A stretch of 55,618 nt of DNA, from positions 1 through 55,618 of the forward strand of contig JAVCCE010000077.1 of the NCBI GenBank assembly GCA_030765645.1, given 5' to 3'. This stretch comes from Candidatus Hinthialibacter antarcticus (lineage in GTDB: Bacteria > Hinthialibacterota > Hinthialibacteria > Hinthialibacterales > Hinthialibacteraceae). The position numbers and the translations under genes are program-made. Each line of letters begins with the position of its first letter. Within the stretch, counting starts at the first letter, position 1. Shown in pieces: positions 24,742-46,350 of this stretch. Under the pieces are notes generated by a model. The model did not search any database and was not told the DNA's origin. It saw nothing but the letters and a program-made list of their open reading frames with translations.

Positions 24742-25485
24742 ATGGTGAGTTCGTCAATTTTACTGGATAGTCAGCCGGCGAGGCCGTGGGTGTTTATGGA
24801 CGCGGGCGATACTTTCATCTATGGATACCCGACCTTCTACGAAGCGGTGCGCGACCGCTGGGGCGCGGTCGGTTCCGAAATCAGCCTCGATACCGTCAGA
24901 CACGAAACCAACCATTTTTTCGCGAACAACCCCAAAGCCGAACTCACCTCGCAAGAACGCTTCGAGGTCTATTTCAAAACGCTCTACCGCCATGTGTTGA
25001 CCGAACTCGGCTTCCCCGGCGTGATCGAAGACCACGTCGAAGGCCTGTGGCAGGAATGGGAAAGCGGACACCGCCTGCGCCTGTTCGACGACGCCCGCTC
25101 GGCGCTGGATATGCTCAAGCGGGCGCGCTTCAAACTGGGCGTCATTAGTAATTGGGACCTCTCGATGGAGCCGGTCATCGAACGCCTGGGCGTACGCGAC
25201 CGCTTTAATGTTTTGGTGTGTTCCTGCAGAGTCGGCGTGGCCAAGCCTAACCCGGGCGTGTTTGAACATGCGCTCGATCAAGCAGGCGCGGCGCCGACCC
25301 AGGCGTGGTACATTGGCGATCAGGTTGAATATGACATCGCGCCCGCGAAGGCGCTGGGCATGAAAACCGCACTGGTCGATTATTACGGTAAGATCAAAGA
25401 GCAAGACCGCAATGAGGCGGATATCTATGCGCCGAGTTTGAGCCTCGCGGTTTCTGAAATCATGCGTGAAGAATTGGGGCGTTAA
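24742..25485 (+). CDS. HAD-superfamily hydrolase
   Basis: A 247-residue haloacid-dehalogenase-type phosphatase. Motif I is VFMDAGDTF with nucleophile D20; the usual second aspartate of DxDxT is glycine, followed by D23, which resembles HDHD3-like members. Motif II is ISNWD, motif III lysine lies in VAKPNPGVF, and motif IV is YIGDQVEYDI. The cap domain is the helical stretch 30-110. It probably dephosphorylates a small metabolite in the cytoplasm. It is a single-gene unit ending in a strong bidirectional terminator. Confidence 0.85.
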   Translation: MVSSSILLDSQPARPWVFMDAGDTFIYGYPTFYEAVRDRWGAVGSEISLDTVRHETNHFFANNPKAELTSQERFEVYFKTLYRHVLTELGFPGVIEDHVEGLWQEWESGHRLRLFDDARSALDMLKRARFKLGVISNWDLSMEPVIERLGVRDRFNVLVCSCRVGVAKPNPGVFEHALDQAGAAPTQAWYIGDQVEYDIAPAKALGMKTALVDYYGKIKEQDRNEADIYAPSLSLAVSEIMREELGR

Positions 25486-25551: not shown

Positions 25552-26577
25552 CTACCCTCGGCGTTGGTCCATAATCGCCATGCGGATGCGCTTTTTCTTG
25601 GCTTGCTCCGCGTCCTCTTGTTTGGACTCTTGAGGCGCTTCTTGCGCAGCGGGTGGTTGCGCAGCGCGTTCTTCCTTGGGCTGTTCGGTAGGAGCGACGC
25701 CTAGTGTTTCCTGCAATCCGCTGATGACGCCTTCGGTTTCTTTTTCTTTCTGAGTCAGGTACGAAATTTCACGTTGCACGGCTTCGAGCTCCGATTGGTT
25801 GGTGTCGAGTTGGGTTTCGCGCTGACCGAGTTGCGACTTGTAGGCGTCGACTTTTTCCTTCACGGTGCGTTGCAGCAACACCTTGAGGTTGTCGATTTTT
25901 TTGCGCAGGTCCTGGCTTTCTTCCTGCAAGACGCCTTCGCGCTGTACGGCGAGGTAGCGTTGTAGGCTGAGGATGCTTTTCTTTTTTTGCTGCAAGTCCA
26001 AGCGTACCGAATAGCCTTCGTTGGCGTCGTGTTGCAGGGCTTTGCTGATGCGGATGTAGCGCGGTTTCATGTTTGCCAGCGCTTGGGCCAGCGGCAGCGC
26101 ATCTTTCGAGTGTCCGCTGCGTTGCATCTCGAGCAGTTCGGCCATTTTGCCTTCAAATTCGCCCATGACCGGATTTTTTTTGCGCGTACTTTCGATGCGG
26201 GTGATTTCTTCAACCGGGATGAGTTGGTTTTCGCGGTATTGATTGAGCGTTCCGGTGGAGATGGTCAGCAAGACCTGCATTTCCATCGCTAGAATACGCG
26301 AATCCCCGCGCAGCGCGAATTGGACGCTGCGTTTCAGGTTGGCGTCTTCGTCGCCTTTCAGGTCGTTGACGTGTTCTTCCGCCTCGGCGGCGGTCATCCA
26401 ACGAACCACGCCGTTATCAACCACGCGAACCAGTTCGCGCGGCGAGCGACCGCTGCTCTCCATCGACTTCGATACGACGTCGTCGAGTAGAGATTCGAGC
26501 TGGTCGACGGTTACATTTTCCGGCGAGGAACCAAATAAATCTTCAAAGGACAACGCCGGGCTTCCTGAGGCAATCAT
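25552..26577 (-). CDS. Coiled-coil protein of unknown family, paralog 1
   Basis: A 341-residue protein I do not recognise. Residues 8-35 (LSFEDLFGSSPE then VDQLESLLDDVV) form an N-terminal motif; 46-62 (ELVRVVDNGVVRWMTAAEA) is a small conserved patch. Residues 125-185 are helical, with KKNPVMGEFEGKMAELL and RYIRISKALQHD. A long heptad-type coiled coil covers about 195-285, and the C-terminus is a Q/E/A/P-rich low-complexity tail ending basic. There is no signal peptide or membrane segment, so it is cytoplasmic. It shares the same order of motifs with the gene just upstream on the same strand, so the two arose by duplication. A structural or scaffold role is possible but unproven. Confidence 0.65.
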   Translation of the reverse strand: MIASGSPALSFEDLFGSSPENVTVDQLESLLDDVVSKSMESSGRSPRELVRVVDNGVVRWMTAAEAEEHVNDLKGDEDANLKRSVQFALRGDSRILAMEMQVLLTISTGTLNQYRENQLIPVEEITRIESTRKKNPVMGEFEGKMAELLEMQRSGHSKDALPLAQALANMKPRYIRISKALQHDANEGYSVRLDLQQKKKSILSLQRYLAVQREGVLQEESQDLRKKIDNLKVLLQRTVKEKVDAYKSQLGQRETQLDTNQSELEAVQREISYLTQKEKETEGVISGLQETLGVAPTEQPKEERAAQPPAAQEAPQESKQEDAEQAKKKRIRMAIMDQRRG

Positions 26578-26637
26578 ACTATCTCCAATGCGTTTATGAT
26601 TGCCCTACAACCACAGATCAAATGATCAAATAAAAAA

Positions 26638-27681
26638 TTACCGCCTAAAGTGCATTCCATGTGCGCGTGATTTCTTCTGTCCGTCATCCGCCGGTTCTGC
26701 TGTCGCTTTGGGCGCGGACATTTGCTTCTTCTCTTGCTTGGCTTTGATGCCTTCCATATCAACTTTCGAGTCAACTTCGCCCAAGATATTTTCGGCGATA
26801 TGTGAAATCACAGCGTCCACTTCATGTTCTTGCCGCTCAAGAATCGAGCTCTCTTTTTCGAGTGAATTCAGTTCGGTGGCCTTTTGTTCAATTTCTTTCT
26901 GTGCGCCTTCAACGTCATAGAGGCGCAGTTTGCTGATTTCGGCGGAGGCTGAATCCATGCCGCGTTCTTCTGCGTCCGCCGTACTGTTTTTTACTAGAGT
27001 GATGCTCGATTGCAAATCATGCAACTCAATCTGCAGCGCGTCGATGCGCGTCGCGCAGATATCGTTTTGCGTATTAAGAATGCGCTTTTTGGTTTTTTGT
27101 AAATTTAAACGGTGATACTGGATGGTGCGGATATCTGGCTCAATGGCGCGTGAGAGCAGGATGTATTTTTTCTTTCTCTCCGCTAAAATGCGCGCCAGAC
27201 GTAAGGCTTCATCCATATTGCCTTTGGCTTTTTCGTTTAAAAACTGCCCCATCATTCCTTCATACTCATCTAACATGGGGTTGCGGCGGCGTTTTTCTTG
27301 AAGCAGCGCCTCACTCTGGGCGGTTTGATTGACGCCTTCGCTAATTTCATGTTGCCGACGAACCAGGCTCGGTTCGATTCGCGCAATTTCTGCAGGCTCA
27401 ATGGCTTCTTGGTCTTTATATTTTCGGACAGTGTAAGTTGCTAAGGCCAGCAGAATTTCGAGTTCCTGCCGGATAATTTTAAGGTCAGCCTTTAAGGCGA
27501 GCTGGACGTCGCTGGCGAGCGAGCCGCTTTCGCCCTGGTCCATATAATTGACGGCTTGTTCCTGCGTCATCCAGACGACTTTGCCTCTGTGCATGACGCG
27601 GACAAGCTGGTTGGGGTTGATCTGAACGCGGTCAGAAATGGCGGACATGATTTTGTCGAGAAAGACCTCGATATTGTCCAT
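26638..27681 (-). CDS. Coiled-coil protein of unknown family, paralog 2 (N-terminus out of frame)
   Basis: A 347-residue frame that aligns with paralog 1: QLVRVMHRGKVVWMTQEQA matches its conserved patch, RRNPMLDEYEGMMGQFL and KKYILLSRAIEPD match the middle, and a coiled coil spans about 190-300. It begins at ATG 27681 without a ribosome binding site. The missing N-terminal part is encoded directly upstream in another frame (ATG 27760: MNDFDLSTIPGVSFKDLMGG), which corresponds to the start of paralog 1. The two frames would join if the G7 tract had one more G. The gene is therefore frameshifted in this sequence, switchable, or mis-assembled. Function unknown. Confidence 0.62.
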   Translation of the reverse strand: MDNIEVFLDKIMSAISDRVQINPNQLVRVMHRGKVVWMTQEQAVNYMDQGESGSLASDVQLALKADLKIIRQELEILLALATYTVRKYKDQEAIEPAEIARIEPSLVRRQHEISEGVNQTAQSEALLQEKRRRNPMLDEYEGMMGQFLNEKAKGNMDEALRLARILAERKKKYILLSRAIEPDIRTIQYHRLNLQKTKKRILNTQNDICATRIDALQIELHDLQSSITLVKNSTADAEERGMDSASAEISKLRLYDVEGAQKEIEQKATELNSLEKESSILERQEHEVDAVISHIAENILGEVDSKVDMEGIKAKQEKKQMSAPKATAEPADDGQKKSRAHGMHFRR

Positions 27682-27760
27682 CGAAAACGCGCCGTCATCT
27701 CCCCCCCATCAAATCTTTGAAGGAGACGCCGGGTATTGTGCTGAGATCAAAATCGTTCAT
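27682..27760 (-). pseudogene. Out-of-frame 5' part of coiled-coil paralog 2
   Basis: From ATG 27760 the minus strand reads MNDFDLSTIPGVSFKDLMGGR then stop. GVSFKDLMGG aligns with ALSFEDLFGS of paralog 1. Reading past the tract in the other frame gives GDDGAFS and then the MDNIEVFLDK of the annotated frame, which aligns with VDQLESLLDD. Addition of one G restores a continuous protein of about 373 residues. Confidence 0.6.
27701..27707 (-). repeat. Homopolymeric G7 tract at the frame break
   Basis: Seven C on the plus strand (G7 on the coding strand) lie exactly where the reading frame of the coiled-coil paralog breaks. Such tracts are prone to slippage in replication and to sequencing error. 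Confidence 0.85.
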
Positions 27761-28039: not shown

Positions 28040-28798
28040 ATGATCCGTATTGAACAACTTACTAAATTTTACGGAAAAACGAAAGCGCTAGATAATCTCG
28101 ATCTAGACATTCGCCCCGGTGAATTTTTTGGCTTTCTTGGGCCAAACGGCGCCGGTAAGACGACAACCATTAAAATTACGGTCGGGCTGTTGCGTCCGAC
28201 GTCAGGCCGCGTTTCGGTTGGCGGCGATGGTTTGGACGGCGGCGTCGATGTCTTACAAGAGCCAGAGCGCGCCAAAGCTTTAATTGGGTATATTCCCGAT
28301 AGCCCCTATTTATACGACAAACTGAGCGGGTATGAATATGTTCACTTTGTCGGCGGGTTGTACGGCGTTCCGGTCAAAAAAATTGACGCTCATATCAAAG
28401 AATATTTTAAAATGTTTAATCTGACTCATGCAGAACATTCGCTGGTCGAGTCGTACTCGCATGGCATGAGGCAAAAACTGGTTATGACGGGCGCGATGGT
28501 GCATGACCCCAAAGTGTTGATCGTTGATGAACCGATGGTGGGGTTAGACCCGCGCAGCAGCCGCGTCGTAAAAGATTTGCTCAAACAAAAAAGCCGTGAA
28601 GGCATGACGATTTTCTTGTCAACGCATACGCTCGACGTGGCGGAAGAACTCTGCGACCGCGTCGGCATCATTCGCCGCGGTCAATTAATTGCGGTCGGCG
28701 GCATTGATGAATTGCGCGGTCAAGCAGAAGATGGCAGCTCTGACTTGCGCCTTGAATCGCTCTTCCTTAAACTAACAGATGAAGCGGCTGAAGCGTAA
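28040..28798 (+). CDS. ABC transporter ATP-binding protein
   Basis: A 252-residue ATPase subunit with Walker A GPNGAGKTT at 34-42, signature YSHGMRQKL, Walker B VLIVDEPMVGLDP, and the switch histidine in LSTHTLDVAEE. The sequence resembles the ATPases of ABC-2-type exporters (CcmA/NatA-like). No permease gene is adjacent; the next gene is fliW. It may pair with a permease elsewhere or energise a gliding or efflux system. No clear ribosome binding site lies before ATG 28040. A 47-base gap to fliW suggests co-transcription. Confidence 0.9.
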   Translation: MIRIEQLTKFYGKTKALDNLDLDIRPGEFFGFLGPNGAGKTTTIKITVGLLRPTSGRVSVGGDGLDGGVDVLQEPERAKALIGYIPDSPYLYDKLSGYEYVHFVGGLYGVPVKKIDAHIKEYFKMFNLTHAEHSLVESYSHGMRQKLVMTGAMVHDPKVLIVDEPMVGLDPRSSRVVKDLLKQKSREGMTIFLSTHTLDVAEELCDRVGIIRRGQLIAVGGIDELRGQAEDGSSDLRLESLFLKLTDEAAEA

Positions 28799-28845: not shown

Positions 28846-29406
28846 ATGAATACATCCAACACCTCCGACGCGATGATCGAATTTGAAACGACACGGTTTG
28901 GGAGCATTACCATTCCCGAAACCGATGTCCTAGATCTGCCGGAAGGTTTGGTTGGGTTCAATCTCTATCACCGATTCACAATTCTGAAAGACCCCGAACA
29001 GGAACCCTTCTTGTGGCTGCAATCGCTGAATGAACCGGACCTGGCGTTTGTGGTGGTCAACCCGTTTCTCTTTTTTCCGGGATATGAAATCAAAGTTAAA
29101 AATTCTGACTTGGCGAGCATCGGGTTAGACGACCTGGCGAAAGCCGAGGTGTTGACCATCGTCACCATCCCCACCAACCCGATGGACCTGACCACCAACC
29201 TGCGCGGCCCAATGGTGGTTAATGTTGAAGATAAAGTCGCCAAGCAATTTGTCTTGATTGATGATCGTTACAATACCAAGCATTTCTTGTTGCATGACAT
29301 ACCGCCCGAACTCGCCGCCCCGGTTGCCGATTCATCCACGCCGAAACAGGGCAAAGTGGTTGAACTGGACGCAGGCAAGCGCCGCGATGAAGGGAAGGGA
29401 ACATGA
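28846..29406 (+). CDS. fliW: Flagellar assembly factor FliW
   Basis: A 186-residue protein. It contains the family pattern: ETTRFGSITIPETDVLDLPEGLVGF at 13-37, WLQSLNEPDLAFVVVNPF near 57-74, and VLTIVTIPTNP with MTTNLRGPMV-like LTTNLRGPMVVN near 115-125. FliW binds CsrA allosterically and releases it when flagellin is secreted, so flagellin translation follows assembly. The C-terminal 30 residues are a charged extension beyond the usual length. csrA follows 49 bases downstream, the standard partnership. No flagellar structural gene is in the window. Confidence 0.93.
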   Translation: MNTSNTSDAMIEFETTRFGSITIPETDVLDLPEGLVGFNLYHRFTILKDPEQEPFLWLQSLNEPDLAFVVVNPFLFFPGYEIKVKNSDLASIGLDDLAKAEVLTIVTIPTNPMDLTTNLRGPMVVNVEDKVAKQFVLIDDRYNTKHFLLHDIPPELAAPVADSSTPKQGKVVELDAGKRRDEGKGT

Positions 29407-29455: not shown

Positions 29456-29701
29456 ATGCTGGTTCTAAGCCGAAAGCGCGATGAAAGCATAATCATCGGC
29501 GATGACGTCGTCGTCACGATCGTCGACGTTAAAGGCGAGCAGGTGAAGATCGGCATCAGTGCGCCCAAAACGGTTTCGATTCACCGTAAAGAGGTGTATG
29601 AAGCGATTCAACAAGAAAACCAGGCCGCCGCAAAAACGCCCATGCAAAACCTCAGCGGCCTTGTCCAAGTCCTCAAAACGCAAAAACCCGCCGGGTCGTA
29701 A
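29456..29701 (+). CDS. csrA: Carbon storage regulator CsrA
   Basis: An 81-residue RNA-binding translational regulator. It starts [20 protein letters not shown] and continues [22 protein letters not shown], the complete CsrA fold with the conserved arginines that bind GGA motifs (R6 and the IHRKE arginine). The last 20 residues are an extension. AGGAGG lies 7 bases before the start. It should repress flagellin and other mRNAs unless held by FliW. The terminator stem begins inside the last codons of the gene. Confidence 0.96.
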
Positions 29702-46223: not shown

Positions 46224-46280
46224 ATTAATATGAAATCCCCTCTCCCTCTGGGAGCAATGTCATTGACTTAAGACTTTTAG

Positions 46281-46350
46281 CCCCCCCCCCTTTTTAAGGG
46301 GGGATGGCGCTGAAAGCGACAGGGGGGATTCGGGCGCAACGCGTTGCGCC
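46281..46350. repeat. Palindromic repeat cluster upstream of ruvC
   Basis: C10 (46281-46290) with TTTTTAA and G6 forms a hairpin. GGGGATGGCGCTGAAAGCGACAGGGGGGATT follows, and then the perfect 18-base palindrome GGCGCAACGCGTTGCGCC (46333-46350). Such blocks resemble REP-like repeats scattered between genes. The palindrome ends 29 bases before the ruvC start and could also affect its expression. Confidence 0.6.

Follow-up and report, generated by a model that had tools for sequence, protein, structure and literature searches.

Tandem coiled-coil paralogues of an order-restricted family in Candidatus Hinthialibacter antarcticus, one with a frame break at a G7 tract that is most likely an isolated indel

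The window, i.e. the whole stretch of 55,618 nucleotides analysed here, comes from the 5.15-Mb genome of Candidatus Hinthialibacter antarcticus and has a GC content of 49.5 %. Both values are close to those reported for Ca. Hinthialibacterota (OLB16), where genome sizes range from 3.39 to 7.54 Mb and GC contents from 49.66 to 65.03 % (PMC11382960). Two genes, here called A and B, lie in tandem on the minus strand, between a convergent HAD hydrolase gene and a divergent gene for an ABC transporter ATPase that is followed by the genes for FliW and CsrA (Table 1). The initial annotation had described A and B as two unrecognised coiled-coil proteins with a common motif order, and this was borne out for both genes. 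Judged by alignment, A and B are true paralogues belonging to one family: A as a query recovers B at about 60 bits, and both fall into the same family in the multiple alignment.

Table 1. Features of the A–B locus and its neighbours (positions in the window; G002 to G005 denote genomes of relatives).
Feature	Position	Strand	Basis
HAD hydrolase, convergent downstream neighbour	24742..25485	+	Pfam HAD_2; synteny in G002-G005
Gene A, coiled-coil protein of 341 aa (coordinates include the stop)	25552..26577	minus	ORF and orthologues
RMAIMDQRRG, gene A C-terminal motif	25555..25584	minus	
Gene A junction RIE/STRKKNP; relatives have ~25 extra residues here	26185..26196	minus	multiple alignment; pairwise DNA alignment with G004
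LVRVVDNGVVRWMT, gene A (LVRVxxxGxVxWMT region)	26392..26433	minus	ORF and alignment
SFEDLFG motif, gene A N-terminus	26530..26550	minus	ORF and alignment
Gene B, 347-aa ORF, internal ATG to stop	26638..27681	minus	ORF
GMHFRR, gene B C-terminal motif	26641..26658	minus	
LVRVMHRGKVVWMT, gene B, predicted beta-hairpin and helix start	27565..27606	minus	alignment; model of G004 orthologue
Gene B 5' piece in the other frame, MNDFDLSTIPGVSFKDLMGGR then TGA	27695..27760	minus	translation; codons 1-18 match G004 MNDFDLNSIPGISFTDLL
G7 tract (C7 on the + strand) at the frame break	27701..27707	minus	one base longer segment than sister gene
SFxDLxG motif, gene B N-terminus	27704..27724	minus	translation; conserved in alignment
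ABC transporter ATPase, divergent neighbour	28040..28798	+	Pfam ABC_tran; synteny in G003, G004, G005
FliW, flagellin-binding CsrA antagonist	28846..29406	+	PF02623, E = 3e-38; synteny in G003, G004, G005
CsrA	29456..29701	+	PF02599, E = 2.4e-26; synteny in G003, G004, G005

Both window genes carry the signature of the family, which consists of the LVRVxxxGxVxWMT hairpin, the RRNP..EYE core and a C-terminal [RG]M motif. Gene A is 57–62% identical to its orthologues in G004 and 38–39% to those in G003 and G005, and gene B shares 70% identity with its G004 orthologue across 345 columns. The best relative in a protein search was found at E = 6e-72, and the motifs are far beyond chance. Relatives that bear a name come from metagenome-assembled genomes whose records carry the names Candidatus Omnitrophota (isolates SURF_12, Zod_Metabat.949 and Ch114) and 'bacterium isolate RI_285'. 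Gene A had been taken as the intact yardstick for gene B. Its frame is indeed unbroken, but it lacks an in-frame segment of 75 nt (25 residues) near position 26190, between RIE and STRKKNP, which nearly all close relatives carry. Either a deletion or an assembly collapse accounts for this gap.

Information on the architecture of the proteins was obtained from an AlphaFold2 model of the G004 orthologue of B, computed with nine relatives (mean pLDDT 73.8). In this model the LVRVxxxGxVxWMT region is covered by two strands (E52-57 and E60-65) followed by a helix (H66-75), and the conserved helical core, for which a long coiled coil is predicted, includes an 85-residue helix. The SFxDLxG motif lies in the low-confidence N-terminus, and confidence is also low from residue 329 onward. 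Based on the model, the poorly conserved linker and tail are probably disordered. Foldseek returned no match among PDB folds at E <= 0.001; resemblances to AhlC-like and axonemal folds (TM about 0.2–0.5, high rmsd) are typical of generic long helices and were dismissed.

The family is new to the databases searched. No Pfam or NCBIfam family scored above its curated cut-off, PHROGs gave no significant E-value, with weak coiled-coil matches only, and a search of PDB sequences revealed no convincing relative. Pfam matches to Lebercilin and CoV_S2, each seen in one or two members, are coiled-coil noise. By these sequence comparisons A and B represent an unrecognised coiled-coil family that is absent from Pfam, NCBIfam, PHROGs and the PDB sequences.

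A single-protein scan of genome contigs found no family match. A six-row alignment of gene B orthologues was suited to scanning; one of 25 rows was too diverse. Profile searches, covering 14 genomes of the phylum, matched all nine that belong to a single order, and had no hit in the five remaining members of the class. Widening the set to 386 genomes added just two matches, both weak and local (61–81 profile columns). Each genome of the order encodes several paralogues, and the distant paralogue groups can be joined by profile-profile comparison (222 columns, 99.6 % probability). In the tree, the gene A clade is supported at 97/96 and spans both families of the order. The A–B tandem arrangement is therefore old, since it is present in both of these families.

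Some paralogues deviate from the full-length form. Short ones (L032:8386-9180:- and L035:8525-9310:+) consist of the helical core only, lack both terminal motifs and are located directly behind a full-length member. At loci G000:C8 and G004:C30 the gap between a full-length member and the shorter protein behind it is ~18–23 nt; this shorter protein matches the distant profile and has neither terminal motif. It is possible that the core-only paralogues are hetero-oligomer partners. A very divergent gene in G003 (L037:7317-8276:+), which immediately precedes a second copy of gene B, encodes a hairpin-like N-terminal motif and a C-terminal RMAF, and its product is probably a divergent family member.

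Common to close and distant members is a short, previously unnoticed motif at the extreme C-terminus, which roughly takes the form of [RG]M[AVH], two to three residues and [QRK]. Within 929 kb of this genome it was present in five of five members and in none of 761 other ORFs, with ~0.9 expected by chance. The idea that the motif tags unrelated proteins was discarded: none was found in the 929 kb, and the one extra ORF that carries it (L037:7317-8276) looks like the divergent member mentioned above. Where a conserved peptide comes after a variable linker, it is usually a site of binding; the C-terminal peptide of the family, placed in this way, is thus a putative binding site. Cytoplasmic coiled-coil adaptor or scaffold proteins with short terminal binding motifs are known in bacteria. 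A and B would resemble them in having a coiled-coil core, a flexible linker and a conserved C-terminal peptide; they differ in that no sequence or fold relative of the family was found.

In gene B the reading frame hinges on a homopolymer tract. A short frame starts with the ATG at 27760 and ends at a TGA just past the G7, and the long frame begins downstream at an internal ATG (27681). The two ATGs are 79 nt apart (phase 1), compared with 78 nt in the sister gene of G004 (locus L034), which is intact, and the stretch between the tract and the internal ATG measures 25 nt in the window versus 24 nt in the G004 sister. Thus, by comparison with the sister sequence, the break amounts to one extra base (or two missing bases) and not to one missing base. 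The initial annotation correctly located the break, which is real in the assembly, at the G7 tract, but its single missing base is the opposite of what the spacing indicates. Since a base is extra rather than missing, the eight G that it named as the mark of an assembly error are the wrong tract length.

The piece upstream of the break is genuine coding sequence, because its codons 1–18 show a third-position bias and its residues resemble those of the sister. Nucleotide changes relative to the sister number 3, 3 and 13 at first, second and third codon positions, respectively, and the third-position excess (13 of 19 changes) has a binomial p of 0.002; 14 of 18 residues are identical (13 if conservative changes count as different). 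In those orthologues whose 5' end is complete, the upstream part is in frame. The N-terminal motif hence belongs to gene B, as had been assumed, and the possibility that orthologues begin at the internal ATG, which would have refuted this, is contradicted. One might nevertheless argue that gene B has lost its N-terminal motif in this lineage, with translation starting at the internal ATG and the upstream piece being a relic. The ORF left over does keep hairpin, core and C-terminal motif intact across 347 codons, and the lost residues map to a low-confidence, probably disordered region of the model. Given the coding signature of the upstream piece, and with no obvious ribosome-binding site at proper spacing ahead of the internal ATG, we regard such a loss as unlikely.

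The tract had originally been interpreted as the site of slippage-based on/off switching. According to that model, slipped-strand mispairing in the G7 would switch gene B, or its N-terminal motif, within the population. Like homopolymeric poly-G contingency loci, gene B has its frame break right at a run of G close to its 5' end, a classic place for such a switch, and the parts on both sides of the break stay conserved. It differs from these loci in that the tract is not conserved, is short and single, and does not belong to a family of similar loci. When one genome per species was compared, no G run was present at the break site in the orthologues of G001–G005, nor in the paralogues compared there. 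In a whole-genome protein search of 61 genomes, the window copy was the sole one flagged for an internal stop, and a profile search of the phylum showed the other close family copies, across nine genomes, to be uninterrupted.

Runs of this length are not enriched either. The window contains two G/C runs of at least seven, compared with 2.7 expected from a first-order Markov model of the window, and G7 matches number 197 genome-wide, with overlapping ones and both strands counted. A G7 alone is not beyond chance. Among 63 unique G/C runs of at least seven sampled from the same genome, approximately 20 (coding tracts of 7–8) sit inside long intact reading frames, and none besides the gene B tract was found to break a gene. 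Apparent frame switches at L127 and L149 turned out to be boundaries between neighbouring genes, and the run flagged at L134 was placed by its flanking sequence in a dispersed intergenic repeat. Because the surveyed runs leave genes intact, the assembly is not generally failing at G7 and no sign of a tract-based switching system is seen; on this sample of 63 runs, a repertoire of phase-variable genes is rejected. Phase variation of gene B itself is very unlikely in view of the missing tract in orthologues, the absence of other broken copies, and the other G7 and G8 tracts in intact genes. A literature search on phase variation in metagenome assemblies retrieved nothing useful. Many of the longest G/C runs of the genome belong to the dispersed intergenic repeat, which is palindromic (CCCCCC-TTTTTAA-GGGGGG beside GGCGCTGAAAGCGCC) and occurs in the window at 46270-46330 and also on L157, L165, L168, L174, L178-L180 and L182.

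A switch at the level of translation was likewise considered. In this scenario a ribosome paused at the rare codon AGA (1.75 per 1000 codons) slips one base forward on GGG-GGG-AGA and restores the frame of the sister without any change in DNA. The slipped product would have the same length as the N-terminus of the sister, and a stop codon follows directly after the AGA. Programmed sites are usually conserved, however, and the orthologues lack the site and are read without a shift, which renders programmed +1 frameshifting exceedingly improbable. Taken together, an isolated one-base indel, rather than a conserved phase-variation switch, is the most likely explanation of the break in gene B; the indel originated either by an assembly error or by a recent strain mutation.

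The genomic neighbourhood offers a hint to the function of the pair. The gene order HAD–A–B–ABC ATPase–FliW–CsrA is kept in four genera. Moreover, distant paralogues are located directly upstream of FapA in G000, G003, G004 (twice) and G005, with a TPR gene coming next in the loci scanned. The link to FapA is partial, because a family gene adjoins only five of the ~36 FapA matches in the order. In their position upstream of FapA and a TPR gene, the distant paralogues are reminiscent of FapA (DUF342) operons; the difference is that the window pair is not located beside FapA and that the family proteins match neither FapA model. Specifically, PF03961 and PF20250 (FapA/DUF342) had no match in A or B, nor were they among the most-matched families of 25 members. 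Nothing useful emerged from a literature search on FapA with DUF342. Based on the synteny with FliW–CsrA and FapA, we tentatively suggest that the predicted proteins most likely function as cytoplasmic adaptors linked to the flagellum.

Alternatively, the proteins may be unrelated to flagella and form a scaffold peculiar to this lineage, such as one of the nucleoid, the envelope or the cytoskeleton, with the FliW–CsrA and FapA neighbours being incidental. Several paralogues adjoin unrelated genes (phosphoglucomutase, a tRNA synthetase, MnmE and a MutS-family gene), and family f2 does not have the A–B pair next to FliW. A search for FliW found none in G001 and G002, both of which contain family members, and flagellins are present in each of the 14 genomes of the phylum analysed, whether or not it encodes the family. 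On the other hand, FapA is the neighbour of two separate groups of paralogues, and in four genera FliW–CsrA lies next to the pair. We consider a non-flagellar scaffold a serious possibility whose chances fall somewhat short of even. Flagellin-type genes are very long in the order (G000-G008), mostly with open frames of 800–960 aa (e.g. L111:166-2850 and L111:4325-7006), compared with mostly 470–670 aa in other families of the class; there are up to 7–9 Flagellin_N matches per genome in the order.

We favour, with a probability of roughly one half, an explanation in which A and B are ancient tandem paralogues of an order-restricted family that serve as soluble cytoplasmic, flagellum-linked adaptors, and in which an isolated insertion of one base has broken B. 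The two proteins would assemble through their coiled coil as adaptors or scaffolds, their terminal motifs would hold a partner, and they may be tied to the assembly of the flagellum or to its control at the post-transcriptional level. The insertion at the G7 would represent an assembly error or a mutation that arose recently in the strain, the gene being unbroken in every relative sampled. It is tempting to go further and to speculate that the ~5–8 paralogous coiled-coil adaptors per genome make up an order-specific system in which one shared C-terminal peptide docks them to a single hub connected with flagellar assembly, and that the N-terminal docking motif of gene B is switched by G7 variation or frameshifting; this combined proposal is, in our estimate, highly improbable.

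The frame break in gene B mainly conveys a note of caution: seen in a single draft assembly and checked against relatives, such a break at a homopolymer is best read as an isolated indel. Our analysis defines an undescribed family in an uncultured lineage by concrete signatures, namely an N-terminal hairpin motif and a linear motif at the extreme C-terminus. The shared tail predicts that the members of this family may have a common binding partner.
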